Shown in pieces: positions 8,771 to 38,299 of a stretch of DNA of 40,333 nt. Source of the stretch: an uncultured Fidelibacterota bacterium (lineage in GTDB: Bacteria; Fidelibacterota; Marinisomatia; Marinisomatales; UBA1611); NCBI GenBank assembly GCA_902611135.1, contig CACLYL010000007.1:1-40333 (forward strand), given 5' to 3'. The translations under genes and the position numbers were made by a program. Under the pieces are notes generated by a model. It was not told where the DNA came from and did not search any database. It was given only the letters and a program-made list of their open reading frames with translations. Positions within the stretch are counted from its first letter, which is position 1. Each line of letters starts with the position of its first letter.

Positions 8771-9943
8771 CTAACTATCGTATGCTGGAAACCCAGTAAC
8801 ATCTTGACCAAGAATTAATGTGTGCATTTCATGCGTACCTTCATATGTATAGACAGATTCAACATTGGCCATATGTCTAATAGGAGAATAATCTATAGTT
8901 ACTCCATTACCTCCTAAGATCTCTCTAGCCGTTCTTGAGATTGATCTAGCAAGCATACATCCGTTTCTTTTAGCCATAGATACCTGCTGGTAGGTCATTT
9001 TTCTATCATCTTTTAATCTGCCTAACCTATAAACCATCAATTGTCCCTCAGTGATTCTCGTTACCATTTCTGCTAATTTTGCTTGAGTTAGTTGATAAGC
9101 TGCTATAGGCTTTGAAAATTGTTTCCTCTCTTTGGCATAATTTAAGGCTGTGTTGTAACAATCTGAGGCCAAACCTAACATACCCCATGCGATTCCGTAA
9201 CGTGCTTGAGTTAAACAACTTAAGGGCCCTTTTAAACCCTCAACATCAGGCAAGCGAGCAGAGTCAGGAACTCGAACATCTACCATAGATAGTTCTGATG
9301 TGACCGATGCTCTCAGACTAAATTTTCCGTGAATATCGCTAGAAGTAAAACCTTTTAGGCCTTTTTCAAGTAGAAAACCGCGTACTATATCATCTTCATC
9401 TCTTGCCCAAACAAGTGCAACATCAGCCAGCGATCCATTTGTAATCCACATTTTATTTCCATTGATAATCCAATCATTACCGCTTCTGAGACATCTCGTT
9501 GCCATACCGCCTGGATTTGAGCCGAAATTTGGTTCAGTCAATCCAAAACATCCGATTTTTTTCCCAGAACCCAAATCTCCTAGCCATCTTTCTTTTTGTT
9601 CTTTAGAACCATAAGCATGTATAGGAAACATTACTAATGAGCCTTGTACGCTGGCGAAAGATCTAAGTCCAGTATCTCCTCGCTCAAGTTCATGTAAAAT
9701 GAGTCCATAGGCTACATTATTAACTCCAGAACCTCCAGAAGTTTCAGGCAGCGATGAGCCCATAAAACCTAATTCTCCAAGAATAGGAACAATCTCCATT
9801 GGAAACGTCCCTCTTTCATAATGTTCATTTATCAGCGGCATAAATTCTTTTTGCACAAAGTTATTCGCCGTCTCTTGAATTAGTAATTCTTCTTCAGTTA
9901 GTAATTCGGTAATGTTAAAAAAGTCTGGTCCAAATTTTTTCAT
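8771..9943 (-). CDS. gcdH: Glutaryl-CoA dehydrogenase-type acyl-CoA dehydrogenase
   Basis: This FAD enzyme would oxidise and decarboxylate glutaryl-CoA to crotonyl-CoA in lysine and tryptophan breakdown. The 390-aa sequence follows human GCDH closely. It has FGLTEPNFGSNPG, then KFSLRASVTS, ARYGIAWGMLG and LGGNGVTIDY. The catalytic Glu lies in YEGTHEMH (E368). The decisive residue is Arg94 in GLRSFASVQGSLVM, the Arg that in GCDH binds the distal carboxylate. Keeping this Arg separates it from ordinary short-chain dehydrogenases. It lies in a minus-strand run below the fused E1 and FabD-like genes, so it may serve the same amino-acid breakdown. The gap to the upstream FabD-like gene is 80 AT-rich bases with nothing recognised. 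Confidence 0.88.
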   Translation of the reverse strand: MKKFGPDFFNITELLTEEELLIQETANNFVQKEFMPLINEHYERGTFPMEIVPILGELGFMGSSLPETSGGSGVNNVAYGLILHELERGDTGLRSFASVQGSLVMFPIHAYGSKEQKERWLGDLGSGKKIGCFGLTEPNFGSNPGGMATRCLRSGNDWIINGNKMWITNGSLADVALVWARDEDDIVRGFLLEKGLKGFTSSDIHGKFSLRASVTSELSMVDVRVPDSARLPDVEGLKGPLSCLTQARYGIAWGMLGLASDCYNTALNYAKERKQFSKPIAAYQLTQAKLAEMVTRITEGQLMVYRLGRLKDDRKMTYQQVSMAKRNGCMLARSISRTAREILGGNGVTIDYSPIRHMANVESVYTYEGTHEMHTLILGQDVTGFPAYDS

Positions 9944-10023: not shown

Positions 10024-11037
10024 TCATATCACAAGCTCTCTTTGAGAATCTAGACTCATTGATAAAATATACGGATTATCACTTTGCATTTCTAAAAAAT
10101 CATTTTTTGATTTTATATTTAACCAATTTATATTAATCATAATTTGAGCAATTGAACCGCCCAAACTATTTCCAGGACCCAATAAAATAACTTTTTCTGG
10201 ACAAAATTCTTTCAAACAGGTTTCGATTGAAGCTGAAAAGTTAAATGAATTTTCAACCTGCTCTTTGAGAGTGTAATTTTTTAACAAACTTAAATTCGTA
10301 CTAAATGGGGTCCAAATATTACCATTCCCATCAACCATTGGAATATCTGGTTTTTGAAAATCCAAGCTTTCTGAAAATTTTAATGCTTTTTTTGAAATAT
10401 CTTTCATAAGAGGTGTATGAAATGCTCCATTATATGGTACCTCTAATGGATATTTGTCAATTTTAGGTAGTTTTTTCATTATAGCTTTTAAAGATTTTAA
10501 TTTTCCACCAATAACATAATAACCGCCAAAATCTATTGATAAATATGCATTATGCTTTTTAATAAGCTTTAATAGATGTTGTTGATAATCCTTTTTTATT
10601 TCCCAATTTTCATTTATGATTGGATGTATTATTTGACCTCCAATTAATTCTTCTTTCATCATTGAACCCATATTTTGTATCATATGGAATGCATCTTTAT
10701 CATTTACTGATGAGGCTAAATTTAGCGAAGTGTACCAACCCATAGAGTTTCCAGTAATTGCAATAATATCATATTTATTTTTGTTTATTTGATCGAAGTC
10801 TAGCTTACTGCAAGAAAAGATAAGTGGGGCAGCATTTTCGCCTTTCATGTGTATTTTTGATTTAAAGGCCATCTTATCTAATTCACTGATTATTATATAT
10901 CCTTTAGACTTCCTATACTCATCAAATTGTATAATTTTATTTTTAGCATTATTACCAAACTTATTGATGAAGCCAATAGACTTTCTAGTATATGATCCTC
11001 TACCCGGACAGATTACAATTACTTTACTCTTTTTCAT
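10024..11037 (-). CDS. Divergent FabD-like acyltransferase lacking the malonyl-binding Arg
   Basis: This 337-aa protein has the fold signature of malonyl-CoA:ACP transacylase. Nucleophile Ser98 is in GNSMG (usually GHSLG). Catalytic His207 is in GAFHTPLM. Gln260 is at the FabD Gln250 position, and a LLGPGNSLGG loop follows. Key changes are the N-terminal PGQGSQ turned into PGRGSY (R13) and the family R-G pair (FabD Arg117, which binds the malonyl carboxylate) turned into M123-G124. By analogy with loading acyltransferases that lack this Arg, it may move a non-carboxylated acyl group; this is inference. The start overlaps the 3' end of the fused E1 gene by 14 bases, implying coupling to a branched-chain-type 2-oxoacid dehydrogenase. 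A true FabD for the cell is probably elsewhere. Confidence 0.75.
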   Translation of the reverse strand: MKKSKVIVICPGRGSYTRKSIGFINKFGNNAKNKIIQFDEYRKSKGYIIISELDKMAFKSKIHMKGENAAPLIFSCSKLDFDQINKNKYDIIAITGNSMGWYTSLNLASSVNDKDAFHMIQNMGSMMKEELIGGQIIHPIINENWEIKKDYQQHLLKLIKKHNAYLSIDFGGYYVIGGKLKSLKAIMKKLPKIDKYPLEVPYNGAFHTPLMKDISKKALKFSESLDFQKPDIPMVDGNGNIWTPFSTNLSLLKNYTLKEQVENSFNFSASIETCLKEFCPEKVILLGPGNSLGGSIAQIMININWLNIKSKNDFLEMQSDNPYILSMSLDSQRELVI

Positions 11038-13243
11038 TTAACATTTCTAATGACTCTTTTATAATTGAGTCTCTGCTGATTAAAGTAGCAGTCGCAGCAT
11101 CTCCAAGTGATATGAAACTATCTTCTGATGCATGAAGACTAATTCTTTTATTTTTGTTCAAATTTTTAGAAAGATTAACTAGGATTCCTTCTCCGTAACA
11201 TCCAGATTTTCTGCATTCATCGACAATTAGAATATTTGAGCATTGAGCGACTTCCCTCATCAACATTTCATAATTAATATCTGATAACCATCTAAGATCA
11301 ATTACTTTAATTTCTTTATCAACTTTTTGTTCTATCTCTTTTTTTGCTTTTAAAGAGTAAAATAATCCATTACCATAACTAATGATGGTTAAATACTTGC
11401 TATCACCATATACTTTAAATTCACCTAATTTGATTTCCTTTTTGGGATTAGGATATCTAAATAACCATTCACCATCTTTTTTTACATGAAGATCCTTAGT
11501 CATGTAAAGGGCTATTGGTTCTATAAATACTACAATTCGACCATTTTCGTTTGCCTGTGAAACTGAATGTCTCAACATTAATGAAGCATCTAAACCGTTT
11601 GAAGGCACTGCTAAAATCAAACCAGGAATATCTCTAAAAATAGTAAGCGAATTATCATTGTGAAAGTGTCCACCAAATCCTTTTTGATATGCAAGTCCGG
11701 GTATCCTTAGAACCATCGGATTTAAAAACTGTCCTTTACTAAAAAAAGATAAAGTAGCAGCCTCCCCCCTTAGTTGATCTTCAGCATTGTGGAAATATGC
11801 TAAAAATTGTATTTCTGGTATTGGTATAAAGCCATTATTGGAAAATCCCATTGCAAATCCAATAATTGAAGTTTCATCTAATGGACTATTAAAAACTCTC
11901 CTTGCACCAAAAATATTGAACAATTCAGAGGTTACATTGTAAACCCCTCCCTTCTCAGCCACATCTTCACCGAAAACAATAATGTTTTTGTATTCTAACA
12001 TGAGGTCTATCAACGTATAATTGATAAGTTTTGCCATATGCTGAGGAATATTTATACGTTCAAATTCTTTTTTGAAGGAAGTTTTTCTTACTTTTAATAA
12101 TGGTTTTCTAGGTAATACTTTATTTGTTTTAGATCCAACAATAGATGACATCACATCTGATTGTGTTTTTAATTTTGGTTTTAGAGTAGCGTGCTCAAAA
12201 ACATTTGATACTTGGTTTCTTGCTAATTCATATAGACTTAATATTTCCTCCAACGATAAAATTTTATTTTTTAAAATAATACGAGCAGAATGTAACAATG
12301 GATCTTCGGCCTCAGCAGCCTCAATCCGATCTAACGTTTTGTAACCCAGTTCAATATCAGATCCTGCATGCCCCATTAATCTAACCGTTTTCATATGTAA
12401 AAATATGGGTTTTCGATTTAAACGACATTTTTTCTCAACAAGTTTAGTTTTATGAATTAAATCAAACATATTTAATCCATCAACTGGTATATATTCTATT
12501 CCAAATCTATTTCCAAAGTTCTCCTTTATCCAACTCGAGCTTGTTGGTACTGAAATCCCTGTTCCATTGTCCTCACAAATAAACACTATTGGTACGTGCC
12601 CACCTAGATTGCAAATCCAGCTAGCTGTATTAATAGCACTTAGAGCTGATGCATGATTTGCACTCGCATCCCCAAAACTGCAGATTACAATACTATCAAT
12701 ATTTAATTCCTTAGTTTCTAAATAAAGGTCTTTTGCTCTATCAATCGAAAAAGCAGTACCGACTGCTTTTGGCAAATGACTAGCAATGGTGCTTGTTTGA
12801 GGAGGTATATTTAATTTTTTGCTTCCAATTACTTTATGTCTTCCTCCACTAATTGGATCTTCAGCTGAAGCCATATAGGACAGCGCTAAATCGTAAAGCG
12901 GCCTCGATCCGTTAATCTGTTTAGACCTCTCCAAAAAAAAAGGAGCACTTCTATAATGAAGAAAAGCCATATCGGTAAATGGAAAAAACTTTCCAAAGAC
13001 TGCATTACCCTCATGTCCTGAAGATCCTATTGTGTAAAAACATTTTCCTTTCTCTTTTAATATTCTCGCCTTGAGGTCAGTATGTCTACTAGTAACTTGA
13101 GATTCAAATAATGAAACTATTGTTGAATAGCTAACTTCCAATGAGGAAAAAGGAACATTACTTTTAGGTAGAGGAAGATTATTACTTTCAACATTCTTTA
13201 AAAAATTATTATCAATTATTTCAGCTCTATTGAATATTGACAA
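11024..13243 (-). CDS. 2-oxoacid dehydrogenase E1, fused alpha-beta (branched-chain type)
   Basis: This thiamine-diphosphate enzyme decarboxylates a 2-oxoacid, probably branched-chain, and passes the acyl group to a lipoyl E2 not in the window. The 739-aa chain is a fusion. The alpha half (about 1-345) has SSGHEGN, YRSAPFFLE and the ThDP motif GDASANHAS (191-199) ending at EDNG (224-227). The beta half (about 400-739) has GEDVAEKGGVYNVT, NSPLDETSIIGFA and GGHFHNDNS. Such fused E1 proteins are common in Bacteroidota. The start is a TTG, supported by AGGA at 13250-13253 six bases before it. Its 3' end overlaps the FabD-like gene, and ThyX lies 36 bases upstream. Confidence 0.88.
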   Translation of the reverse strand: MSIFNRAEIIDNNFLKNVESNNLPLPKSNVPFSSLEVSYSTIVSLFESQVTSRHTDLKARILKEKGKCFYTIGSSGHEGNAVFGKFFPFTDMAFLHYRSAPFFLERSKQINGSRPLYDLALSYMASAEDPISGGRHKVIGSKKLNIPPQTSTIASHLPKAVGTAFSIDRAKDLYLETKELNIDSIVICSFGDASANHASALSAINTASWICNLGGHVPIVFICEDNGTGISVPTSSSWIKENFGNRFGIEYIPVDGLNMFDLIHKTKLVEKKCRLNRKPIFLHMKTVRLMGHAGSDIELGYKTLDRIEAAEAEDPLLHSARIILKNKILSLEEILSLYELARNQVSNVFEHATLKPKLKTQSDVMSSIVGSKTNKVLPRKPLLKVRKTSFKKEFERINIPQHMAKLINYTLIDLMLEYKNIIVFGEDVAEKGGVYNVTSELFNIFGARRVFNSPLDETSIIGFAMGFSNNGFIPIPEIQFLAYFHNAEDQLRGEAATLSFFSKGQFLNPMVLRIPGLAYQKGFGGHFHNDNSLTIFRDIPGLILAVPSNGLDASLMLRHSVSQANENGRIVVFIEPIALYMTKDLHVKKDGEWLFRYPNPKKEIKLGEFKVYGDSKYLTIISYGNGLFYSLKAKKEIEQKVDKEIKVIDLRWLSDINYEMLMREVAQCSNILIVDECRKSGCYGEGILVNLSKNLNKNKRISLHASEDSFISLGDAATATLISRDSIIKESLEMLNEKE

Positions 13244-26019: not shown

Positions 26020-27981
26020 TTAAAATTCTGTATTTATATTATAATTACCATTTTTAAAATTATTCTCTTTTGGATATTGAGCCATAGGTTTATATGTTAC
26101 AACTAGCTCTTTTAATAAATCTTGAATAATCCCCGAGTCTAATTTTTTTGAGGCTAAAATTAAACGATCTAAATAAATTAAAAATGATTCCCACGGGACA
26201 ACCGGATTTTTATCTACAAGTATCATAATTTTAGAAAATTTTGTATTTAACTTCTTCTCATTCTCTAATTTTAATTCCTCGTGCAACTTTTCACCTTCTC
26301 TTAATCCAGTATATACTATTGGAATATCGATATCAGGAGTAAGACCAGATAGCCTTATTAAATCTTTTGCAATTTGAATAATTTTTATTGGTTTTCCCAT
26401 ATCAAGCAAAAATATTTTTCCCTTGCCTCCTATTGCACTTGCCTGAAGAATAAGTTGTGCTGCTTCTGGAATTGACATAAAATATCTAGAGATTTCAGGA
26501 TGCGTTATTGTAACAGGACCGCCCATTTTGATTTGTTTTTTAAATGTTGGAATTGCACTACCTGAACTGCCTAAAACATTTCCAAATCTCACTGAAAAAT
26601 ATTCAGTTTCTGAAACTTGATTATATGATTGAATCATTTTTTCAGATAACCTCTTCGTTGCTCCCATAATATTTGAAGGATTTACAGCTTTGTCAGTAGA
26701 AACTAGCACAAATTTTTTAGCACTATATTTATTGGCTAACTTTATCATATTTAAAGTCCCAAATATATTAGTTTGCACTGCTGTCCAAGGATGCCTTTCT
26801 TGAATCGGAACATGCTTATATGCCGCCGCATGAAAAATAATCACTGGTTTGTAATCTCTGAAGACTTTATCGATCTGATCATGATTTACCACATCACATA
26901 AAACTGTTCTTATAGCAACATTATTTTTAACTTTTTCGTCCATATTTTCCAAATTAAAAATATTTTGCTCTGAAAAGTCAACACAAATTATCTCTGAAGG
27001 ATTAAATGCAATACACTGTCGGACTAATTCACTACCAATAGAACCTCCAGCACCAGAGATCAGAATTTTTTGTCCAACAAGAAATTTATTAATTAATTTT
27101 ATATCTAAATTGGCTTCTTGCCTGCCCAAAAGATCAGAGTATGAGATATCTCTAACTTTAGCAATCGTTATATTTTTATCAATTAATTCATTTAAGGAGG
27201 GTACTGTTTTATATTTTTTATTTATAACTTTACAATGATCAACAATATGTAATAGTTTTTCTCTAGATATTGAAGATATAGTAATTAAAACTTCATCAAA
27301 TTCTAAGTTAATAATATTTAAGGATGTTATCTTATCAATTATTTTTAAGTTGTGTATATAACGTCCAACTTTATTTAAATCATCATCCAAAAAACCAACA
27401 ATTTCATAGTTTGAATCTGGAGTATTGATAATTTCTCTCGCTATTTTCTCACCTGTCTTCCCTGCACCGAGCAATAATAATTTTTTTTTAATTTTTCTTT
27501 TTACTCTATAATTCTGCATACTTCTATAATGGAAAATAATCCTGACAAAGACTCTAATAGATATTAATATTATGGTATTAAGAAAAAAGAAAATTATAAT
27601 TGCAGATCTCGAATATCCTCCAAATCCATAAATGAAAATAAAAAACAGAATGCTCACAAAAAAAGAGATTGAAATTGATTTTAATATTTTTAGCACGTCC
27701 CACAAACTTATAAATCGCCAAATTATTTTATATAAATTGGTAAAGTTAAAAATCAATATTTGGCATCCCATATAAATTGGTAACCAAGAATAAATTAAAG
27801 CGAAACCTTCAAGAGGGATCTTAAATTCAAATCTTAAATATAAAGATATAAAAATGCTTAAAAGTATTGTTACAGAATCAAAAATTATTAAATAAATTTT
27901 TCTATAACTCTGGAAATTGGAATATATTAAAGAAAACAAATTACAAACCTTAAATTTTATAAAACTTTTATGAAGGTCCAA
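26020..27981 (-). CDS. WbpM/CapD-type membrane UDP-GlcNAc 4,6-dehydratase
   Basis: This 653-aa protein has four N-terminal membrane helices (about 28-150). A first Rossmann-like domain follows (LLGAGKTGEK, 171-179), then a catalytic SDR domain with SGAGGSIGSE (309-318). The active site reads STDKAVNPSNIMGATK (428-443). Met439 takes the place of the usual Tyr, with Lys443, as in WbpM rather than FlaA1. It would convert UDP-GlcNAc to UDP-4-keto-6-deoxy-GlcNAc, the precursor of QuiNAc, FucNAc or bacillosamine residues. The start is TTG, and no in-frame ATG lies nearby upstream of the stop at 28006. It lies between the initiating transferase and the Wzi-like gene. Confidence 0.92.
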   Translation of the reverse strand: MDLHKSFIKFKVCNLFSLIYSNFQSYRKIYLIIFDSVTILLSIFISLYLRFEFKIPLEGFALIYSWLPIYMGCQILIFNFTNLYKIIWRFISLWDVLKILKSISISFFVSILFFIFIYGFGGYSRSAIIIFFFLNTIILISIRVFVRIIFHYRSMQNYRVKRKIKKKLLLLGAGKTGEKIAREIINTPDSNYEIVGFLDDDLNKVGRYIHNLKIIDKITSLNIINLEFDEVLITISSISREKLLHIVDHCKVINKKYKTVPSLNELIDKNITIAKVRDISYSDLLGRQEANLDIKLINKFLVGQKILISGAGGSIGSELVRQCIAFNPSEIICVDFSEQNIFNLENMDEKVKNNVAIRTVLCDVVNHDQIDKVFRDYKPVIIFHAAAYKHVPIQERHPWTAVQTNIFGTLNMIKLANKYSAKKFVLVSTDKAVNPSNIMGATKRLSEKMIQSYNQVSETEYFSVRFGNVLGSSGSAIPTFKKQIKMGGPVTITHPEISRYFMSIPEAAQLILQASAIGGKGKIFLLDMGKPIKIIQIAKDLIRLSGLTPDIDIPIVYTGLREGEKLHEELKLENEKKLNTKFSKIMILVDKNPVVPWESFLIYLDRLILASKKLDSGIIQDLLKELVVTYKPMAQYPKENNFKNGNYNINTEF

Positions 27982-28035
27982 TTTAACGGATTTTTTACTT
28001 ATACATTACAAATTTTATAATTGACAATAAAGTTT

Positions 28036-28599
28036 TTATAATTTGATACTGTCTCCTTTTAAGACTTTAAAGAAAGTATAAAACAATATTTTCAAATCAA
28101 AGGCGATTGATTTATTTTGAAGATAATAACTATCAAAATCAACTTTCTTACTAATGGATAAATTGTCTCTTCCATTAATTTGAGCCCATCCAGTTACTCC
28201 AGGTTGCAATTTATGAATATTTTTCTTCGTTCTCAATTCAATTAAATCAGTTTGATTGTATAACGCTGGCCTAGGGCCAATAAAAACCATGTCACCCTTG
28301 ATTATGTTTAATAATTGAGGTAATTCATCTAAGCTAAGTTTTCTTAAAAGTTTACCGCATCTTATGTAAGGATTATTATCCATGCTTAATAAATGACTTG
28401 CAAGTTCAGGGGTATTTTTTTTCATTGATCTAAATTTATACATGGTAAATATAGAATTTTCTTTCCCAATTCGTTTCTGAGAAAATATGCATGGTCTACC
28501 ATCATCAATAAAAATAATTATTAATATCAACAAAAAAACTGGAGATAAAGACAGCAACAAAATTATACTTATTAATCTACTAAGCATTATCAAAATCAA
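28036..28599 (-). CDS. Initiating sugar-phosphate transferase (PglC type)
   Basis: This enzyme transfers a sugar phosphate from UDP-sugar to undecaprenyl phosphate, starting repeat-unit synthesis. At 187 aa it is the minimal monotopic PglC-type core with one N-terminal hydrophobic reentrant helix (about 6-30). Hallmarks are KFRSM (55-59), the catalytic D91-E92 in DELPQLLNIIKGDM, FIGPRP (107-111) and PGVTGWAQINGR (133-144). The annotated start is a TTG overlapping the epimerase stop by 4 bases (TTGA). An ATG four codons later (28587) is an alternative. Upstream SDR epimerase and downstream dehydratase probably make its substrate. Confidence 0.93.
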   Translation of the reverse strand: MILIMLSRLISIILLLSLSPVFLLILIIIFIDDGRPCIFSQKRIGKENSIFTMYKFRSMKKNTPELASHLLSMDNNPYIRCGKLLRKLSLDELPQLLNIIKGDMVFIGPRPALYNQTDLIELRTKKNIHKLQPGVTGWAQINGRDNLSISKKVDFDSYYLQNKSIAFDLKILFYTFFKVLKGDSIKL

Positions 28600-29486
28600 A
28601 GAGAATCTTCAATCTCATAGTTTAGATTAATAAAATTTCTAATCTTAGTTGAGGGATATATGTTATCTGAAATCAGTTTAATTATATTTTCATTTAAATC
28701 GTGAAGATGAAGAATATTAAAAAGTAAGTATAAGTATCTTACGGTAAATAATGGAATTGGAATAAACCAATTAGCCCCCTGCAATTTAGCTAGCTGATTA
28801 TAACTATACTCCCGATTATCAGATATATTATAAACCCCATTAGGGATCTCATCTTTAATTATCCCAACAATTGTTGAGAGAATATTTTTCACATTACATA
28901 ATGAGAAGGTACTTCGACCATCACCAACTCTATAAAAAGAGTTCAAAATTTTAGTCCTCCTTTCAATATTAAGCATAAACTTTTTAGAGTATACAGGTGC
29001 AAACCTAAGGATCCAGGATATTTTAGGGTAATTTTTTAAAAGATATTTTTCTGCTTTACATTTTGTTTTAGCATAAGGGCTTTTAGGGCTTAAGCAATGA
29101 TCCTCTTGATATATTGGATCTTTAAGACTTTCACCATAAACGGATATTGTACTAGAAAAAATTATTTTTTTTGGAAGTTTTTCATTCAAAGATAATGAAG
29201 AGATTAAGTTTTTTAAAGTAATGAAATTTACTTTTTTAAATTCATTATAATCTTTTGACTTTCCTTTCTTATGTGCTAAACCAACCAGGAAGATTAAAGA
29301 ATCAAAATAAGGGTTATTTTTTACAAAGTTATTAACTTCAATTTTATTTAAAAGATTTATAGAAGCAGAGTTTTTAGTTATAATTGAAGTAGAACCTGAC
29401 AGACTATATACATTATAATTTTTAATTAATTTTGGAGTAATAAAAGATCCAATGTTACCGTTTGCACCGACAACTAAAATTCTCAT
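28596..29486 (-). CDS. NAD-dependent sugar epimerase/reductase (extended SDR)
   Basis: This is a 296-aa extended SDR. The NAD-binding start is MRILVVGANGNIGSF, and the catalytic part has SSTISVYGE and the YxxxK motif in SPYAKTK. The substrate domain is short. In polysaccharide loci this type, placed next to a PglC-like transferase, acts as UDP-GlcNAc/GalNAc 4-epimerase or as a 4-ketoreductase making QuiNAc or FucNAc from the WbpM product. The latter fits this neighbourhood. The choice cannot be made from sequence alone. It overlaps the initiating transferase by 4 bases. Confidence 0.82.
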   Translation of the reverse strand: MRILVVGANGNIGSFITPKLIKNYNVYSLSGSTSIITKNSASINLLNKIEVNNFVKNNPYFDSLIFLVGLAHKKGKSKDYNEFKKVNFITLKNLISSLSLNEKLPKKIIFSSTISVYGESLKDPIYQEDHCLSPKSPYAKTKCKAEKYLLKNYPKISWILRFAPVYSKKFMLNIERRTKILNSFYRVGDGRSTFSLCNVKNILSTIVGIIKDEIPNGVYNISDNREYSYNQLAKLQGANWFIPIPLFTVRYLYLLFNILHLHDLNENIIKLISDNIYPSTKIRNFINLNYEIEDSL

Positions 29487-29518
29487 AATTAATACCTTAT
29501 ATGATCCCTAAAATAAAT

Positions 29519-30211
29519 TTAGTTTATTGTCTTTAACAAACTTTTTGCTAGAAACAAATCTTCAGGTGTCCCGATATCAATGAAAGTATTATTAAAAGTC
29601 AGCGACCCTATTTTTAAACGGTATAGATTGTTTCTAATAAAATCACTGAAATTGAAGCAATTTTCTATTTTAGTTTTTTCAAATAATTTTCTTTTTATAA
29701 TGTAGACTCCTCCATCTATTGTACCAGAACTTTGATATTTTTTTTCATTAAATGAAAGGATATGGCCTCTAGCATTAGTGCTTACATAACCATATCTATC
29801 AAAGTCTTTCATTTCTTTTAATGATAATGTAATATCATTATTATTACTATTTTGCCAAGTCATCAAACTTTTTAAATCTACATCAAAAAAAGTATCGCCA
29901 TTTAAAATAATAACATTATCGTCATTCACATAATTTAAAGCAACTTTGATTGCGCCACCACTTCCTAAAGGATTTTTGTCGATTGAATATACAATGGGTA
30001 TATTAAAAACTCTATCACCATATGCTTCTTCAATTACGGAGCTTTTATAATAAGTTGATATTATTATTTTAGTGAACCTATATCTTTTTAAAAAATTAAA
30101 AACATAATCTAAAAAAGGCCGGCCATTAACATCAGCCATTGGTTTTGGTATATTTTTTATTTTACTTTTTAACCTGGTTCCAAATCCGCCAGCTAAAATG
30201 ATACATTGCAT
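29519..30211 (-). CDS. Sugar nucleotidyltransferase, HddC-like
   Basis: This is a 230-aa nucleotidyltransferase of the short GT-A-like type. The nucleotide loop is ILAGGFGTRL (5-14), followed by KPMADVNGRPFLDY, which is very like HddC (D-glycero-D-manno-heptose 1-phosphate guanylyltransferase). GDTFFDVD near 100 holds the metal-binding Asp, and DGGVYI and FIDIGTPEDL close the protein. No heptose kinase or isomerase is in the window, so the sugar may be a heptose made elsewhere or another sugar 1-phosphate. It sits between the epimerase and a GT2 gene. Confidence 0.82.
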   Translation of the reverse strand: MQCIILAGGFGTRLKSKIKNIPKPMADVNGRPFLDYVFNFLKRYRFTKIIISTYYKSSVIEEAYGDRVFNIPIVYSIDKNPLGSGGAIKVALNYVNDDNVIILNGDTFFDVDLKSLMTWQNSNNNDITLSLKEMKDFDRYGYVSTNARGHILSFNEKKYQSSGTIDGGVYIIKRKLFEKTKIENCFNFSDFIRNNLYRLKIGSLTFNNTFIDIGTPEDLFLAKSLLKTIN

Positions 30212-30289
30212 GATTTTTGAAAGATTATTTTAAAGTCATAAAAAGAGTTTTTAAAACTAGGCTAAAATATTGTATCTAATTGATATAAT

Positions 30290-31126
30290 CTATGATTCTT
30301 TTTTTATTTTTTTTAACATGAATACAAACTTTGTATTCAATAAGATTGAAAGAATATTATTAGGCAGTAATTTGATAACGTAAAATAATAGTAATGGTAT
30401 AATTCTTTTGTATAGTGGCCATATGTTTTTACTGTTCCTTTTAAATACATTATAATAGTTTTTATAATGCTCTCTTCCCCTTTTTAAATTTTCATCATGT
30501 GGAGACCTATAGAAAACCAGCTTTTTTTGAATATTATACATTTGTTTTTTCTTTGCTAAGAATCTCAACCAAAGTTCAAAATCTTCAGCTTTTTTTAAAT
30601 CCTCATTAAAAAGTCCTATTTCTAAAAGATCTTTTTTCCTTAAAAGAATCGATGAATTAGCTATTGGCATTTTAAATAAGAATTGTTTTAAGATATCTTT
30701 ATTTAATTTTGGATATAATCTCTCTCCAATTATTTTACTTTTTTGATCTACGAGAAATAAATTTGTACCAACAACACTATATTCCTTATTCCTACATAAT
30801 ATATTTACCTGCTTTTCTAACTTTAATTCATGATAAAAGTCATCACTATCCACAATGGAGATAAATTTTGAATCTTTATCACTATTTTTAATGCCAAGAT
30901 TTCTTGAGGATGAAACCCCAGAAGAGTTACTATTAATTAATAGATTAAAATTATCATTTTCTTGACAGATTTTATTTAAATAATTAAAGTTTCTATCATT
31001 TTTTTTATCAATTACAATATAAAGATTATAGTCTGTAAACGTTTGATTAATTAAGCTCTGAATACATTCATTTAAGAACCGAGGGTTCTCATTTCTAGTT
31101 GCCATTACAATTGAGACTAATGACAT
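30290..31126 (-). CDS. Family 2 glycosyltransferase
   Basis: This is a 278-aa GT-A transferase of the locus. It begins SLVSIVMATRNENPRFLNEC and has the LGIKNSDKDSKFISIVDSDDFY segment with the DxD metal site (DSDD). Later it has the acceptor-side EDFELWLR, where ED is the probable catalytic pair. The C-terminus has a hydrophobic stretch (LLLFYVIKLLP) near 250, perhaps a membrane-associated helix. It would add one sugar to the lipid-linked repeat; donor and linkage are unknown. It follows the first radical SAM gene by 32 bases. Confidence 0.88.
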   Translation of the reverse strand: MSLVSIVMATRNENPRFLNECIQSLINQTFTDYNLYIVIDKKNDRNFNYLNKICQENDNFNLLINSNSSGVSSSRNLGIKNSDKDSKFISIVDSDDFYHELKLEKQVNILCRNKEYSVVGTNLFLVDQKSKIIGERLYPKLNKDILKQFLFKMPIANSSILLRKKDLLEIGLFNEDLKKAEDFELWLRFLAKKKQMYNIQKKLVFYRSPHDENLKRGREHYKNYYNVFKRNSKNIWPLYKRIIPLLLFYVIKLLPNNILSILLNTKFVFMLKKIKKES

Positions 31127-31158
31127 AAAGGAAAATAGAAGTACGAATTAAAAAAAGG

Positions 31159-32793
31159 TTATTTTGATAAAATTTTAGTTTCGTAGTCTCTGGGAACTAT
31201 TGCTGGAACTGGGTCAGTATTTGGTATTTTCACTTTGTTGCTTTGATCTAAAGTCTCAGAGGTTGACCCTGCTGAAAACCGTGTTTTAAATCTATCTTTA
31301 CCATATGTTCCTTTTCTCAAAAATGCTTGAAACCTGAGACCAGCTTTAATATTTCTAATTAGTTCAGAGGGCTTAAAAATGGATTGAATTAGTTTATAAA
31401 CTAAATAACGAGGTCTCATGTAGTACTTTTTTCTTGCATAATCGCACCAATCCACTATTTCGTCTCCGCTCATATCAGGCATTCTTACAACACTATTATG
31501 ATAACCCTCTTCGGTTACCCATTGATCATAGGATTCAACTGTGAGAAGTCCATGATCTTTTGCCCAAATATAATCTGGAGTACCAGGATAAACAATGAGC
31601 GGAAAAAACTGCATTGTATCATCATTTAATTTTAGGGCCAGATCAAGAGATTCTTGAAGATGATCCTTAGTTTCACCAGGATTTCCAACCATAAAACAAC
31701 TATGAACCATTATTTCAGCCTTTTTACAATCGTTTGAAAATTGAATTATTTGGTCAGCTTTTACTCTTTTTTTCATCTTGTCAAGAACACTCTGATTAGC
31801 ACTTTCATATCCTACAGTTAGTAAAACACAATTCGCTTTTTTCATTAATTTAAGAACATCTAGCTTTAGCCCAACACGAACATTTGTGTACCATTTTAAC
31901 TTTACACCCCTCCTGATTTTTTCTTCACAAAATTCTTTTACTCTTTTGATACTTCCTGCAAAGGTATCATCTTCAATACCTACTTCTTTTACCTGTTTAA
32001 GGTTTTTTTCTATCCATTCAAATTCATCCACTAAATTTTTAGCTGAGCGCATTCTATACTTTAACTCGTGAATAGCGTATGGATAAACACAAAAAGTACA
32101 TCTATCTGTACATCCTCTAGCACTCATAATCATAACCTCAGGGTAATCAGAGGCCCCAAAAAAGTAGTCTTCAATTTTTAGATGCTTTTCATAGACTTGA
32201 CTAACAAAAGGTAAAGAATCAAGATCAACTATTTGTGGTGCTTTCTTGTTATGAAAAATTTTACCATCTACCTGAAACGAAATACCTAATATTGATGCTA
32301 GTATGCTCTTTTTTTCCTTTGATTTTAAATTCGAGATTTGCTGATTTTCTAGTATATTTGCAATCTCAACTACAGTTTGATCTGCCTCGCCTCTAATAAT
32401 GATATCAAGGCTCTCTTCCATTGAAAGAGTTTCATCTGGAAGAGCAGAAGGATGAGTTCCCATCACAGCAGTTATAATATTACCCTTAAATTTTTCTTTG
32501 ATTTTACTGACTACCATAAGATCATTTATGATACTTGGAGTTGAGGTATCTAAAATAATTAATCTAGGATTAAATTCAACTATCTCAGAAATAGTATTTT
32601 CTAAATCTATTCTTCCTGAACATGAATCAAATAGTTTAACATCATGCCCATTTTTCTCACAATTACCAGCTGCATAGGCTAGCCATATTGGGTAATAGAC
32701 CGTTCCACTTTTTGTTACAGCGGGACTTCTAGACGTCCTTGAAAACTTACCATGTTTTACTTTAAATGGGGGATTTAAAAAAAATACTTTCAT
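31159..32793 (-). CDS. B12-binding-type radical SAM protein (paralogue 1)
   Basis: This 544-aa protein has an N-terminal cobalamin-binding-like Rossmann domain (about 1-150) and a radical SAM TIM-barrel. The 4Fe-4S motif CxxxCxxC is C228, C232, C235 in SARGCTDRCTFC. The DxHxxG motif for base-off B12 is not present (FDSCSG at that place). After the barrel, a tail with SGDEIVDWC and YYMRPRYLVYKL occurs, shared with the next gene, so the two are paralogues. Relatives in the BchE/HpnJ/HpnR style do C-methylation or ring or chain rearrangement. Inside this glycan locus it may modify a sugar or the lipid carrier; inference only. It starts 3 bases after the stop of paralogue 2. Confidence 0.85.
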   Translation of the reverse strand: MKVFFLNPPFKVKHGKFSRTSRSPAVTKSGTVYYPIWLAYAAGNCEKNGHDVKLFDSCSGRIDLENTISEIVEFNPRLIILDTSTPSIINDLMVVSKIKEKFKGNIITAVMGTHPSALPDETLSMEESLDIIIRGEADQTVVEIANILENQQISNLKSKEKKSILASILGISFQVDGKIFHNKKAPQIVDLDSLPFVSQVYEKHLKIEDYFFGASDYPEVMIMSARGCTDRCTFCVYPYAIHELKYRMRSAKNLVDEFEWIEKNLKQVKEVGIEDDTFAGSIKRVKEFCEEKIRRGVKLKWYTNVRVGLKLDVLKLMKKANCVLLTVGYESANQSVLDKMKKRVKADQIIQFSNDCKKAEIMVHSCFMVGNPGETKDHLQESLDLALKLNDDTMQFFPLIVYPGTPDYIWAKDHGLLTVESYDQWVTEEGYHNSVVRMPDMSGDEIVDWCDYARKKYYMRPRYLVYKLIQSIFKPSELIRNIKAGLRFQAFLRKGTYGKDRFKTRFSAGSTSETLDQSNKVKIPNTDPVPAIVPRDYETKILSK

Positions 32794-32796
32794 ACC

Positions 32797-34236
32797 TTAA
32801 GCTGCAACCTTAGGTCTAACATACCTTTTAAGAAAGCCTGCAAAATTTTTGATATATCTAAACAATTGTCCAGGACTTTCAACAGCTTTTAGCCTGTCAA
32901 AAATGTAGGAAGGTCTTAGATAAAATTGCCTCAAACCATAGGCGGCGGCATCATATATTTCTTCACCAGATAAATCAGGATAATCATATACTGGTAATTT
33001 AAGTGGGTCATAAAGATCCCAGTTTTTGTGTTTTAAATAACCTTTCTCTTTCATCTGTTTATAAAATCCAGTTCCTGGTGCGGGGACTGCTATTCCCAAT
33101 GTAATAAAGGAAGCGTTTAAAGTTTTTAAAAATTCAATCGTTTCATACATAGATTCTCTAGTTTCTCCAAGAAATCCAACTACACAGAATAGTAAAATAT
33201 CAATATCTGCATCCCTAGTCATTTTAACAGCATTAGTAATATAATCTCTCCTAACACCCTTTTTTATATTCTTTAATACTTGATCATCAGCACTTTCAAA
33301 ACCTACACCAATAGTATGACATCCAGCTTTTTTCATCAAATCTAATATTTCTTCATTTAAACAATGGGAACGAGTCGTGCACCACCATGATAAATCTATT
33401 TTCTCATCTATCATCCTTTGAAAAATTTCCTTATTCCATTGGTGATCATATGTGAAGGTGGCATCATTAATAAAAACTTCTTTGAACCCAAGCTTTTTAA
33501 CCCATTTTAACTCTTCAATTATGCTATCTACACTTCTTTTCATTACATTACCAAAAAATGCTGGCTGACAGCAAAAATTACACTTTGCAATACACGATCT
33601 ACTGAATTGAACCATGGTTTTTGGCGATCGACGCATAGTTGGATCTGAATATAATTTTTGATCTAACTTATCATGGGCTGGGAAACCTAATTGATCATAA
33701 TCGAGCAAAGGCGGATGATTTTCTGTCCTAATTAATTTATTTTCAGAATCCCTATAGACAATACCCTTAGCAAGACTAATATCATTAATGTTTTTAACAA
33801 TATCTAATGATACCAATTCCCATTCATTTGAAAATATACCAATATCAAGATCGTTAGATTCTTCTAATGTCTCATTTGTGAGCTCCATCACATGCGTACC
33901 AAATGCTACTGTTGTACAGTCTGAATTAATATCTTTTGCTACTTTAGCTAATTTTACATCTTCGTAAATTGTACAGGTGGAGGTAGAGAAGAAAATAATA
34001 TCTGGTTTTTTACTTTGAAAAAGTCTTTTTATATCAGTTAGATCTTCCCTAGCATTGTTCGCATCATAGAATATATTATCAAAGCCATTTTTTCTTAAGT
34101 AACCGGACATCCATAGAACATCAATGGGAGCTTTTTTAAAATCACTTTTATTTGTTCCATTACCGCCATATATTCTTTGTACACCATTCTTAGATGTTGC
34201 TGGCGGCTCAATTATGTAGATTAAAGGCCTATTCAT
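32797..34236 (-). CDS. B12-binding-type radical SAM protein (paralogue 2)
   Basis: This is a 479-aa protein with the same design as its downstream neighbour. Residues about 1-150 form a B12-binding-like domain. The radical SAM cluster is C215, C219, C222 in FSRSCIAKCNFC. Later segments include VGFESAD, LFCVVGFLGET, PAPGTGFY and a tail SGEEIYDAAAYGLRQFYLRPSY that mirrors SGDEIVDWCDYARKKYYMRPRY of the neighbour. The N-terminal segment IEPPATSKNGVQRIYGG differs from it, so they are diverged rather than recent duplicates. It begins 23 bases after the amidotransferase gene. Possible roles are radical C-methylation, epimerisation or deoxygenation of a glycan or lipid; the product is unknown. Confidence 0.85.
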   Translation of the reverse strand: MNRPLIYIIEPPATSKNGVQRIYGGNGTNKSDFKKAPIDVLWMSGYLRKNGFDNIFYDANNAREDLTDIKRLFQSKKPDIIFFSTSTCTIYEDVKLAKVAKDINSDCTTVAFGTHVMELTNETLEESNDLDIGIFSNEWELVSLDIVKNINDISLAKGIVYRDSENKLIRTENHPPLLDYDQLGFPAHDKLDQKLYSDPTMRRSPKTMVQFSRSCIAKCNFCCQPAFFGNVMKRSVDSIIEELKWVKKLGFKEVFINDATFTYDHQWNKEIFQRMIDEKIDLSWWCTTRSHCLNEEILDLMKKAGCHTIGVGFESADDQVLKNIKKGVRRDYITNAVKMTRDADIDILLFCVVGFLGETRESMYETIEFLKTLNASFITLGIAVPAPGTGFYKQMKEKGYLKHKNWDLYDPLKLPVYDYPDLSGEEIYDAAAYGLRQFYLRPSYIFDRLKAVESPGQLFRYIKNFAGFLKRYVRPKVAA

Positions 34237-34259
34237 ATCCTAAGTTAGAATCTTTTTTA

Positions 34260-36146
34260 TCAATTCCCAAATTTTTTGTACCATAATTGGAATGATAGAA
34301 TTGACCATAAGTATTTACTGTTATCCTTCTTCCCACTTAAATGTTCTAATTTAAGATTTTCAATAAAATCTGCATTGAAAATCCTATTTTGTTCAATCTC
34401 TTTTTTATTTAAATATTTATCTAGTATTTTATCAAATCCCTGTTTAAACCATAAGTTCATAGGAATAGAAAATCCTCTTTTTTTACCGTTTAAAATTTGC
34501 TTTGGTAAAAGTTTTCTGACTTTAGTTTTTAATAGATATTTAGATGACAAGCCCGAGAGCTTTAAATTACTTGGAATAGTAGTGCAAAATTCAACTAATT
34601 TATGATCTAAAAATGGAACTCTCACTTCTAGGGCATTACCCATGCTTGCTCTATCAACTTTAGTTAGATAATCATCTAACAAAACAGTTTTTATATCAAT
34701 ATTAATAAACTTATTTATATAGTCATTCGATTTAAATTTTTCAAAATAATGTCCATAAAATTCAAAGGAATCTTTTAGGGATTTATTTAGCATGTAAGTT
34801 TTAGAATAAAGATTCCTTTTTAAACTTTCATCAAAATAAGTTAACCAAAATAGATGTCCATTATTAAAATCTAACTTAAACAAGCGCTCTAGCTTTCTTA
34901 GTTTTGATATTAAACTATTTAAATCTGAATTTTTTGGGAGAAAATTAATTAAAATAGGAAAAATTTCTCTAGTGATAAAGTCTGGAAAAAACTTCCTTAA
35001 AACATAATTTATTTTATCTATCTTATAATTGCCATATCCAGCAAATATTTCATCTCCTCCATCGCCCGAAAGCACTACTTTAACATGCTGTCTCGCAAAT
35101 TTTGAAACAAAGTAAGTCGGTATAGCTGAGGAGTCAGCAAAAGGCTCATCAAAGTTAAAATAAATATCCTCTAAAATATCAATGTCCTTTGGTTCAATAA
35201 TATATTGTCTGTGATCAGTGGAAAATTTATCTGCTATTAATTTTGCATTATCCAATTCACTATATTCCTTTTCATTAAAGCCAATAGTAAAAGTTTTTAT
35301 TTTTTTTCTAGAATATTTTGATGCAAGTGCAACTAAAGTAGCAGAGTCTAATCCTCCACTTAGAAAGGCCCCGACCTCAACATCACTTACTAAATGGTAC
35401 TTTACTGACTCTTCAATCAAGTCAAACATATTATCAGCAATCTCATTAGCTTTTAACTTATCTAAAAATTTAAAATCATAATCGCCATGATTAATATCCC
35501 AATATACTTTTTTTATTAGACTGCCCTCTTTATAGTTAATCATTGTGCCTGGTTCTAATTTATATATGTTTTCAAATATAGACATTGGCGTGGGAACATA
35601 ACCAAAGGTTAAATAATTATGAAGAGCAGAATCATTTATTTTCTTTTTTAATTCAGGGTGTCTTATTATTGCTTTGATTTCAGATCCAAAAATAATTTTG
35701 CTTTCATCCCAAAAGTAATATAGGGGTTTTATACCAAGTCGATCTCTAGCGAGAATTAAACTTCTTTTTTCAATATCCCATATTGCAATAGCAAACATCC
35801 CCCTTATCTTTTCAACAAACTTGGTTCCGAATAATTGATATAACCCAATAATTGTTTCAGTATCTGATTTGGTTTTTAATTTGTAACCTGAACTTTTTAG
35901 TTCTAATTGAAGCTGTTTAAAATTATATATCTCACCATTAAAAATAACCAAACTCGTTTTTTTACTATTAAATTGTGGCTGATCACCATTGTCAAGATCA
36001 ATAATTTTTAATCTTCTCATTCCCATAGCAATATCTTCATTAACAAAATAACCCTCGCTGTCTGGCCCCCTATGAGTGAGAGTTCTGCACATAGATTTAA
36101 CAAGGTCTATGCTTGTATCATTTGTAAATCCTACAATTCCGCACAT
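34260..36146 (-). CDS. asnB: AsnB-type glutamine-dependent amidotransferase
   Basis: This 628-aa protein has a glutaminase domain with nucleophile Cys2 (MCGIVGF), then RLKIIDL, NGEIYN and SDTE. It also has a synthetase domain with the ATP loop AFLSGGLDSA, FDEPFADSSA and SGDGGDEIFAG. Both halves look intact. In general AsnB makes asparagine, but in surface glycan loci such proteins (for example WbpS) amidate uronic acid residues. Location between a GT4 and two radical SAM genes favours glycan modification. The ATG directly abuts the stop of the GT4 gene. Confidence 0.88.
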   Translation of the reverse strand: MCGIVGFTNDTSIDLVKSMCRTLTHRGPDSEGYFVNEDIAMGMRRLKIIDLDNGDQPQFNSKKTSLVIFNGEIYNFKQLQLELKSSGYKLKTKSDTETIIGLYQLFGTKFVEKIRGMFAIAIWDIEKRSLILARDRLGIKPLYYFWDESKIIFGSEIKAIIRHPELKKKINDSALHNYLTFGYVPTPMSIFENIYKLEPGTMINYKEGSLIKKVYWDINHGDYDFKFLDKLKANEIADNMFDLIEESVKYHLVSDVEVGAFLSGGLDSATLVALASKYSRKKIKTFTIGFNEKEYSELDNAKLIADKFSTDHRQYIIEPKDIDILEDIYFNFDEPFADSSAIPTYFVSKFARQHVKVVLSGDGGDEIFAGYGNYKIDKINYVLRKFFPDFITREIFPILINFLPKNSDLNSLISKLRKLERLFKLDFNNGHLFWLTYFDESLKRNLYSKTYMLNKSLKDSFEFYGHYFEKFKSNDYINKFINIDIKTVLLDDYLTKVDRASMGNALEVRVPFLDHKLVEFCTTIPSNLKLSGLSSKYLLKTKVRKLLPKQILNGKKRGFSIPMNLWFKQGFDKILDKYLNKKEIEQNRIFNADFIENLKLEHLSGKKDNSKYLWSILSFQLWYKKFGN

Positions 36147-37307
36147 TTAACTTGTTAATACTTGCTTATAAATTTTTTCAGTTTCTTTTACATTAAGTTT
36201 TAATGTAAAATTAGATTTACACTTCTCATAACCATTAGTCCCCATATCTATTCTGAGTTTTGAATTGTGCATCAACTTATTAAGTGCCTTGACTAATAAT
36301 TCTATATTTTCTTTATCTATTATTATACCAGTTTCACCGTTTGTAACCGCTTCAGGGATGCCCCCTACATTACTTCCAATAACTGCTAATTTATGCGCCA
36401 TAGCCTCTAAGGCTACTCTAGGAAAAGACTCTTGAATTGATGGGATAGTTAAAACATTTATAATCTTTAACCAATTTCTAATATCTTTCTTAAATCCCAC
36501 AAAGATAATTACTTTATCCATTTCATTATCTTTGACCCATTTCAATAGAAAATCTTTTTGTCGACCGTCACCTACAACCAAACATCTTAAATTGTTATTA
36601 CCATCATCAAAAAGGAGCTTCAAGGCTTTAAAAAGATAAATATGACCTTTAACTTCGTCAAATACTCCCACAATACCTACAATAAAGAAATTATTATAGT
36701 AATAGTCAGATTTTTTTGATGTGTTTTGATTTTCTTTTAAAAACATTAACAGATCTATACCATTATATACTACTTTAACTTTTTTGGATATTTTCCCATT
36801 AATTTTAAAACTCTTTTTATTTGCATTAGAGACAGCAATAATCGCATCCATAAAGGATAATTGGAAAATTTTTAAAAATTTTTCTATGAAACTCTTATTT
36901 AATAAATCTCTTGAATGACATATAACTTTTGATTTCAAGGTAATTGCAACTAGTCCACAAATTATCTTTGATAAATTATCATGAGGGTGAATTAGATCAA
37001 TCTTTTTTGCTTTGAGAATTAATCTTAACCTTAATGCAACTTTAAATATCTTAAAACTATATTTAATTAAGCTAAAAATATTTAGTTTTATTTGATTTCG
37101 ATATAGCCCAAGGATATCAGGATCTACATGGAATTTAATAGTCTCTATTCCCTTTTTTTTTATCTTTTTGATTATATGATTATCTTTTGAATATATTACG
37201 ATAGGATAAAATCTAAACTGATCGAGATTTGTCATTAGCTGAAAAATGCTGTTCTCTCCGCCTCCAACATTTCTAGCACCATGCATAACATACGCAACAG
37301 ATATCAT
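36147..37307 (-). CDS. Family 4 glycosyltransferase
   Basis: This is a 386-aa GT-B retaining transferase. It starts ISVAYVMHGARNVGGGENS, typical of the N-terminal donor-side loop, and has LIHPHDNLSKIICG and VYNGIDLLMF. The C-terminal domain has SIQESFPRVALEAMAHKLAVI, which is the EX7E signature, then GGIPEAV and NGETG. It would add a sugar to the growing repeat on the cytoplasmic face. The stop abuts the ATG of the AsnB-type gene, and the methyltransferase gene is 11 bases upstream. Confidence 0.92.
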   Translation of the reverse strand: MISVAYVMHGARNVGGGENSIFQLMTNLDQFRFYPIVIYSKDNHIIKKIKKKGIETIKFHVDPDILGLYRNQIKLNIFSLIKYSFKIFKVALRLRLILKAKKIDLIHPHDNLSKIICGLVAITLKSKVICHSRDLLNKSFIEKFLKIFQLSFMDAIIAVSNANKKSFKINGKISKKVKVVYNGIDLLMFLKENQNTSKKSDYYYNNFFIVGIVGVFDEVKGHIYLFKALKLLFDDGNNNLRCLVVGDGRQKDFLLKWVKDNEMDKVIIFVGFKKDIRNWLKIINVLTIPSIQESFPRVALEAMAHKLAVIGSNVGGIPEAVTNGETGIIIDKENIELLVKALNKLMHNSKLRIDMGTNGYEKCKSNFTLKLNVKETEKIYKQVLTS

Positions 37308-37318
37308 ATTTAATTTAT

Positions 37319-38293
37319 TTACTTTTTACGTGCTTTAGCGATGATTCCATTTGGTCCATAACTAACATTAATATCTGAAAATTCTTTTTCGTTAAACCAC
37401 TTTCTTACTTCCCATATAGTTTTTGGTTTATCGTACATGGGAGCATATTTATCAAAGGTATCTAAAATTGACCACTCTAAAAGATCTTTATAGGTCATAT
37501 TATCCATCTCCTTGATAAAGCCTTTATGGTATGCAATTGGAATAAAAAAAGCAAAATATTTTCCTAAAGGTATATTTTCAGTTATAAACATTTTTATTGG
37601 AAATAAAAATGGAACTACTTTAAATATAAAACTATATAATTTTTCTTTTTTAATCCTTTTAGTAATTGGCCTAAACCAGTATTTGAGATTTAGGAGGGTC
37701 CTAAATGAGAAATCATATACATCAATACATATCTCTCCTCCAGGCTTTAGATATGGAACAAGACTTTTGAAAGCTTTTTTAGGATTAGGAGTATGTTGCA
37801 GTACACCTAAGCAAAATATTTTATCAAATGATTCAGATTCTAATGGTATTGAGAAAATATTTGCTTGAAATACCACTAGATTTTGATTTTTGAAGTTATT
37901 CTGAAAATTAGCTTCAACAGCATCTGAATAATCAAAGCTATAAACTTCCGCTCCCGTTTTAATTATAACTTCAGTAAATCTACCAGCTCCACATCCAGCT
38001 TCTAAAACTTTTTGTAATTTTAGTTTTTTTTTATCCCAGCAAGTAACTCTATAAAAACGATTTTCTGATATTTTCAACTTACTGACACTATCTAATTGAG
38101 TCTTTTTATATTTATTCCATTGATATCCAAATGAATTTGCATAGTTGTTTTGATTAACAAAACGAGGGATACCATCAATTATAGGAAATTCAATTTTGCA
38201 TTTTTTGCAGCATAAAACCTCAAAAGTATTTTCCCTAGTTTTTTTTTCTGGAATTAGTTTTCTATTACAATTATAACAAATAAAATTTTTCAT
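37319..38293 (-). CDS. Class I methyltransferase with N-terminal zinc ribbon
   Basis: This is a 324-aa protein. The first 40 residues carry a Trm112-like ribbon with C6/C9 and a second CxxC-type pair (CKKC), then FPIIDGIPRFV. A Methyltransf_11 domain follows with motif I LEAGCGAGRFTEV, the acidic YSFDYSD loop, and FCLGVLQHTPNP. The C-terminal 120 residues have hydrophobic helices and AKARKK at the end. This combination is common in polysaccharide loci, where such enzymes O-methylate sugars. The acceptor is unknown. It lies 6 bases after the polymerase-like gene. Confidence 0.85.
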   Translation of the reverse strand: MKNFICYNCNRKLIPEKKTRENTFEVLCCKKCKIEFPIIDGIPRFVNQNNYANSFGYQWNKYKKTQLDSVSKLKISENRFYRVTCWDKKKLKLQKVLEAGCGAGRFTEVIIKTGAEVYSFDYSDAVEANFQNNFKNQNLVVFQANIFSIPLESESFDKIFCLGVLQHTPNPKKAFKSLVPYLKPGGEICIDVYDFSFRTLLNLKYWFRPITKRIKKEKLYSFIFKVVPFLFPIKMFITENIPLGKYFAFFIPIAYHKGFIKEMDNMTYKDLLEWSILDTFDKYAPMYDKPKTIWEVRKWFNEKEFSDINVSYGPNGIIAKARKK

Positions 38294-38299
38294 TAATGT

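Follow-up and report, generated by a model that had tools for sequence, protein, structure and literature searches.

A FabD-like acyltransferase paired with a fused E1 beside glutaryl-CoA dehydrogenase: most likely a previously undescribed variant of 2-oxoadipate dehydrogenase

What does a FabD-like acyltransferase do when its gene overlaps that of a 2-oxoacid decarboxylase and the arginine that binds malonate is gone? The question arises from a 40,333-nucleotide stretch of DNA (contig CACLYL010000007.1, hereafter the window) belonging to Candidatus Neomarinimicrobiota (SAR406). There, a fused E1 component and an acyltransferase (AT) are encoded in reading frames that share 14 bp, and the next gene encodes a glutaryl-CoA dehydrogenase (GCDH). 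We propose that E1 and AT most likely constitute a 2-oxoadipate dehydrogenase variant, previously undescribed, in which a FabD-like acyltransferase takes part. A literature search found no paper linking GCDH, a malonyltransferase-like protein and an E1. The open reading frames, their overlap and all the motifs named in the original prediction for this DNA are present as described there. The three genes of the module are:

8771..9943, minus strand: glutaryl-CoA dehydrogenase (decarboxylating type), third member of the module, with Arg94 and Tyr367-Glu368 present; assigned by these residues and homology scores
10024..11037, minus strand: FabD-fold AT, 337 aa, proposed glutaryl transferase; assigned by profile, predicted fold, alignment and tree
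11024..13243, minus strand: fused E1 alpha-beta, a 2-oxoacid decarboxylase/dehydrogenase dependent on thiamine diphosphate (ThDP), 739 aa, TTG start; assigned by domain matches and alignment

We searched 61 genomes of the same order for AT, E1 and pathway genes. About half of these genomes have close AT orthologs (41–57% identity), which are clearly distinct from the true FabD that the genomes also encode. A public genome collection gave 128 relatives, from which 80 loci were kept for counts. Carriers besides Neomarinimicrobiota fall in Bdellovibrionota, Gamma- and Alphaproteobacteria and Acidobacteriota, and include Colwellia, Glaciecola, other Alteromonadaceae, Shewanella, Hahella, Marinobacter, Nevskia, Novosphingobium and a Holophagae metagenome-assembled genome (MAG). 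The same E1 lies immediately upstream of AT on the same strand in 80 of the 80 loci, and the two reading frames overlap in 57 (by 8 bp in 35 and by 4 bp in 17); clade genomes inspected over wider flanks show the pairing too. A maximum-likelihood tree places the AT orthologs in a single clade of their own (100/100 support), separate from the FabDs. The single clade, the invariable upstream E1 and the frequent overlaps together argue that the association is not due to chance, and the pairing that the original prediction hinged on is conserved across genomes. An apparent E1-AT fusion in one locus (L128, a 1028-aa open reading frame) was rejected as a high-GC frame artefact, since E1 is encoded in another frame. 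The AT from a contig titled 'Streptomyces griseus' MAG (L114) groups with Bdellovibrionales in the tree, and this contig is probably from a mislabelled bin. In genome G020 (L029/L058) E1 and GCDH are intact, whereas the AT gene is interrupted by a frame change and accompanying stops; it is either a pseudogene of recent origin or misassembled.

The third gene points to the acyl group that is handled. The window protein scores 464 bits against Thermus GCDH (2eba) and 391 against human GCDH, compared with ~220 bits for the best short-chain acyl-CoA dehydrogenase and 156 bits for human isovaleryl-CoA dehydrogenase, and it contains the glutarate-binding Arg94 and the catalytic Tyr-Glu pair (367–368). 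Of the 80 relatives, 63 have GCDH inside the locus that was fetched, lying downstream in 36, upstream on the same strand in 12 and divergently in 15; the existence of three arrangements indicates that its link to E1-AT has survived rearrangement. The substrate-binding Arg94 is present in 63/63 of these proteins and the Tyr-Glu motif in 61/61, the other two matches ending at contig ends before the motif. The E1-AT-GCDH set has a LysR-type regulator next to it in many Gammaproteobacteria. Because the conserved third gene encodes GCDH, the acyl unit handled by the pair is most likely glutaryl, which is itself carboxylated.

How would AT accommodate such a group? The residues of interest in the window protein are as follows:

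10999..11001, minus strand: AT Arg13, at the position of FabD Gln11 (oxyanion loop); Arg in 81/81, candidate carboxylate binder
10744..10746, minus strand: AT nucleophile Ser98 (GNSMGWY); conserved in 81/81 sequences of the alignment
10669..10671, minus strand: AT Met123, at the position of FabD Arg117, which binds the malonyl carboxylate; Met in 80/81, Leu in 1/81
10417..10419, minus strand: AT catalytic His207; conserved in 81/81
10258..10260, minus strand: AT Gln260 (FabD Gln250); conserved in 81/81

AT resembles FabD (MCAT, TIGR00128) in fold, in overall length and in its active-site Ser, His and Gln (Ser92, His201 and Gln250 in FabD). The AlphaFold model is confident (pLDDT 85), with best matches in the PDB to 5dz6, 3hjv and 1mla (E about 1e-15 to 1e-16), so that, as the original prediction supposed, the fold is that of FabD and the nearest solved structures are FabDs and trans-acting acyltransferases. 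The sequence is far more distant. It had no hit in a Pfam profile search at E values up to 10, matched TIGR00128 weakly (54.7 bits, E 1e-14), far below the curated fabD cut-off of 260.9 bits, and is 22% identical to E. coli FabD over the part aligned by BLASTP. Its motifs are PGRGSY (Arg13), GNSMGWY (Ser98) where FabD has GHSLGE, Met123-Gly124 in place of FabD Arg117-Gly118, and GAFHTPLM (His207), followed by Gln260; Asn97 and Trp101 stand in for FabD His91 and Glu95, and FabD Asn160 is replaced by Ser. Across the 81 aligned ATs Arg13, Tyr16, Asn97, Ser98, Trp101, Gln135, Ser167, His207 and Gln260 are invariant, and not one has an Arg at the malonyl site, confirming the loss that had been noticed in the window protein. 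In contrast, the true FabD paralogs found elsewhere in the genomes of this clade, which fall outside the AT clade of the tree and lack the pairing with E1, have Arg117 and Gln11 in 13/13 cases, and E. coli FabD also has Arg117. The invariant catalytic residues and the family-wide replacement of Arg117 suggest that the Ser/His machinery is retained and the acyl pocket rebuilt. With glutaryl as substrate and Arg117 lost, another basic residue would be needed for the distal carboxylate, and Arg13 is the obvious candidate; we offer this as a proposal. The earlier suggestion that an AT lacking Arg117 uses non-carboxylated acyl groups is unsafe for this family, given its different invariant Arg in the active-site loop.

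E1 contains PF00676, PF02779 and PF02780 and has the ThDP fold of the alpha2beta2 type. Alignment showed that the catalytic histidines of lipoyl-acylating E1s are retained. In domain order and fold it is like the fused branched-chain E1s, with 26–32% identity to the fused E1 of the branched-chain 2-oxoacid dehydrogenase (BCKDH) type found in the clade. It differs from them in having no E2 or E3 of its own, in being paired with AT and in a family-specific loop with an invariant basic residue:

11681..11683, minus strand: E1 Lys521, in the family-specific loop (AYQKGFGGHFHNDN) by catalytic His528; candidate distal-carboxylate site

This loop is two residues longer than in the BCKDH-type paralogs, and the basic position, which is Lys or Arg in 7/7 E1s compared, is absent from those paralogs. 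We suggest the loop as a candidate site for the distal carboxylate of the substrate. The gene context argues against a branched-chain substrate. 'Branched-chain-type', as the E1 had been called, holds for its alpha2beta2 architecture and in no other sense.

Evidence on the product came from three genomes (G005, G021 and G057) in which E1-AT is absent and GCDH is present. In each, a two-gene 2-oxoacid:ferredoxin oxidoreductase (KOR) lies between GCDH and ThyX:

L176:8084-10517, L178:3541-5950 and L188:3587-5996: KOR next to GCDH, found only in these three genomes, which lack E1-AT

These copies are 76–77% identical to the G021 copy, none of the remaining 58 genomes has a match that exceeds 44%, and in G015, of the same genus as G005, E1-AT occupies the KOR position. 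KOR (KOR/POR) is an unrelated ThDP and Fe-S enzyme that uses ferredoxin. The simplest reading is that both systems do the same job, converting a 2-oxoacid and CoA to an acyl-CoA, and from this exchange of genes it follows that the E1-AT product would be an acyl-CoA. The GCDH-adjacent KOR is probably specific for 2-oxoadipate; we found no description of such a KOR.

These findings bear on the original prediction that the E1 makes a branched or uncharged acyl unit which AT loads onto an acyl carrier protein (ACP) as a starter for lipids. The missing malonyl Arg and an E1 of the type found in BCKDH and pyruvate dehydrogenase (PDH) are what it has in its favor. Yet the conserved neighbor is GCDH rather than a ketosynthase or ACP, the clade has a separate BCKDH-type complex, and the ferredoxin oxidoreductase in the same slot implies a CoA product. 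Nor does AT share the setting of a loading-type (starter) polyketide synthase acyltransferase, as no adjacent ketosynthase, ACP or module context was found among the neighbors that were annotated or mapped, a set that does not include every neighbor. That E1 and AT act in sequence on a 2-oxoacid-derived acyl unit is very probable and this part of the prediction stands; the branched unit, the ACP and the lipid starter find no support, given the GCDH linkage and the separate BCKDH-type complexes, and we regard this as the least credible of the alternatives.

Genes around 2-oxoadipate provide a further link. In the gammaproteobacterial locus L146, genes for an aminoadipate-semialdehyde dehydrogenase (Pcd/AASADH), a class-III aminotransferase, E1 and AT follow one another on one strand, and in Marinobacter (L136) an AASADH-like gene is upstream. 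L-lysine 6-aminotransferase (LAT, TIGR03251) was above cut-off in 39 of the 61 genomes, including 9/9 E1-bearing genomes of at least 90% completeness. Neomarinimicrobiota have a conserved cluster of LAT and an antiquitin-type AASADH, joined in several genomes by another aminotransferase of class III; this cluster (L158:2964-7182 and equivalents) is beside thymidylate kinase and ThrRS genes. The saccharopine route was considered and set aside in favor of the LAT route because most genomes with E1-AT lack PF16653. In 12 of the 80 loci a homocitrate-synthase-like gene is next to the module, and in the KOR-bearing G005 one is next to GCDH. Its product has 375 aa and scores just below the LysS equivalog cut-off (L034:10005-11132, L188:2360-3487), and the gene occurs with both the E1-AT and the ferredoxin-oxidoreductase versions of the module. 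As annotated, the LAT, AASADH, aminotransferase and homocitrate-synthase-like genes all surround 2-oxoadipate.

No E2 or dedicated lipoyl protein was found in the E1-AT module. The E2 loci read in 12 genomes are each tied to one of two other E1s: an AceE-type E1 of 884 aa, accompanied by E3, or a fused E1 of 668 aa, accompanied by E3 and neighboring genes. The names E3 and AceE here rest on size and gene order rather than a profile search. The 668-aa fused E1 is the BCKDH-type enzyme, with its own E2 and E3 and separate from E1-AT, and in the window genome, likewise, another fused E1 is found adjacent to an E2. Neomarinimicrobiota can carry both the AceE-size E1 complex and the fused-E1 BCKDH-like complex (L195-L206). 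The second E2 of the clade ('E2b') appeared promising by co-occurrence as a partner of the window E1 and was rejected, as it sits with the 884-aa AceE-type E1 and E3 and is lacking from the E1-AT-bearing G038 and G039 (97% and 96% complete), which have the fused-E1-associated E2 only. A dedicated lipoyl H-protein was also discarded, since GCV_H copy number showed no pattern matching E1-AT and most genomes had one strong GcvH match. An E2 of its own with a lipoyl group, adjoining or co-occurring, as marks a canonical 2-oxoacid dehydrogenase complex, was thus found for E1-AT neither in the module nor among the E2 loci of the 12 genomes.

SucA-type E1 (TIGR00239) had no match above cut-off in any of the 61 genomes, which raises the possibility that the pair is the 2-oxoglutarate dehydrogenase of the tricarboxylic acid cycle standing in for SucA; 2-oxoacid:ferredoxin oxidoreductases often take 2-oxoglutarate. 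However, nearly all genomes of the clade have another ferredoxin oxidoreductase (~615 aa), a finding that led us to reject SucA replacement, the linkage is to GCDH, and the pair is present in Shewanella and Colwellia, which have SucAB. We judge this explanation quite improbable.

Our data thus favor, with moderate confidence, the view that E1 and AT are an alternative 2-oxoadipate dehydrogenase feeding GCDH in the catabolism of lysine or of another source of 2-oxoadipate. The route would begin with the conversion of lysine, by genes elsewhere in the clade, to aminoadipate semialdehyde, 2-aminoadipate and 2-oxoadipate. The fused E1 would decarboxylate 2-oxoadipate on ThDP and reductively glutarylate a lipoyl group; AT would receive the glutaryl on Ser98 and pass it to CoA, in place of an E2 catalytic core; and GCDH would convert glutaryl-CoA to crotonyl-CoA and CO2. 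Since neither an E2 nor a lipoyl protein dedicated to the pair turned up, E1 probably uses, in trans, the lipoyl arm of the housekeeping PDH or BCKDH E2, for which actinobacterial OdhA, with its use of lipoyl groups in trans, is a precedent (PMC10415282). For the chemistry of AT there is a precedent in the serine hydrolase ABHD11, which acts on glutaryl-lipoyl (PMC12643935). These two transfers we infer from E2s that are tied to other E1s, the lack of SucA, the mostly single GcvH and the retained catalytic histidines. The sequences themselves show the gene identities, the conserved module, the residue changes and the KOR in the slot that E1-AT leaves empty, and on these genomic grounds the pathway assignment has good support; 2-oxoadipate is the substrate we infer for E1; lipoyl as donor and CoA as acceptor for AT are the most speculative elements, and the lipoyl-to-CoA step is the least certain. 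That the pair represents a new architecture, dedicated to 2-oxoadipate in several phyla, in which a FabD-type serine acyltransferase replaces the E2 fold and carries a dicarboxylic acyl group from lipoyl (or E1-ThDP) to CoA, is a possibility to which we give somewhat less than even weight.

Two other roles for AT keep glutaryl as the substrate. E1 and a whole borrowed E2 could make glutaryl-CoA, with AT in a repair role, as a thioesterase that frees lipoyl arms of stuck glutaryl (or other) groups. The E1-AT coupling would fit a housekeeping partner, and in mitochondria ABHD11 works in this way, as a serine thioesterase for glutaryl-lipoyl (PMC12643935). The adjacency of AT to E1 in every locus, mostly with overlapping frames, speaks against such a role, as do the FabD fold and Gln260, which are features of acyl-CoA/ACP transferases. 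ABHD11 shares with AT a serine acyl-enzyme chemistry on glutaryl tied to 2-oxoacid dehydrogenases but is an ABHD-type hydrolase, of another family and eukaryotic. We consider a repair function unlikely. Alternatively, AT might load glutaryl from glutaryl-CoA or E1 onto ACP, for example for pimeloyl-ACP in biotin synthesis by the BioZ route. FabD-type transferases do act on ACP, and glutaryl units prime biotin synthesis in alpha-proteobacteria, but BioZ prefers glutaryl-CoA and glutaryl-ACP is unseen in nature (PMC7645780). GCDH would moreover compete for the substrate and no biotin-synthesis genes were seen in the module, making this role very unlikely.

Several observations weigh against the 2-oxoadipate dehydrogenase that we favor, which is a proposal from genomics. 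FabD relatives normally act on pantetheine thiols, and we know of no direct precedent for lipoyl-to-FabD transfer. The lysine genes of Neomarinimicrobiota are not adjacent to E1-AT, and the homocitrate-synthase-like gene is of a biosynthetic type whose place in a catabolic module is unexplained. GCDH is not a neighbor in 17 of the 80 loci; several of these end at contig ends, and about half have adequate flanks (e.g. L101, L119, L125, L149 and L150) and are true exceptions within the distance covered. In G012, GCDH is present with neither E1-AT nor a KOR of the kind in G005, G021 and G057. No LAT or FabD was seen in the window genome, which is 58% complete, so that absences there mean little. 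The E1 structure model was too poor (pLDDT 68) for pocket analysis, so that Lys521 stands as a candidate site.

Its genomic link to GCDH and aminoadipate enzymes is what would be expected of E1-AT as a 2-oxoadipate dehydrogenase in the functional sense, which would convert 2-oxoadipate and CoA to glutaryl-CoA. The proposed overall reaction, upstream of GCDH, is that of the DHTKD1-DLST-E3 complex, but DHTKD1 is a SucA-type homodimeric E1, whereas E1-AT has a fused alpha-beta E1, a FabD-like AT and no DLST-like E2 of its own. OdhA/KGD of Actinobacteria similarly combines E1 and acyltransferase in one unit that has no lipoyl domain, and differs in acting on 2-oxoglutarate and in having its acyltransferase as a normal E2-type domain within a single chain. 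If correct, our proposal would fill a poorly defined bacterial step, from 2-oxoadipate to glutaryl-CoA, for which the documented alternatives are glutarate:CoA transfer and HglS, which leads to 2-hydroxyglutarate. It would mean that 2-oxoacid dehydrogenases can exchange their E2 acyltransferase for an unrelated fold recruited from fatty-acid synthesis, and would allow lysine catabolism to be annotated in abundant ocean bacteria (SAR406, Bdellovibrionota, marine Gammaproteobacteria), where pipelines are apt to misname the pair as a malonyltransferase and a branched-chain or pyruvate dehydrogenase.

Elsewhere in the window, positions 26020-39649 on the minus strand hold surface-polysaccharide genes (nucleotide-sugar epimerase/dehydratase, asparagine synthase-like and glycosyltransferase) together with genes for two B12-binding radical SAM proteins.

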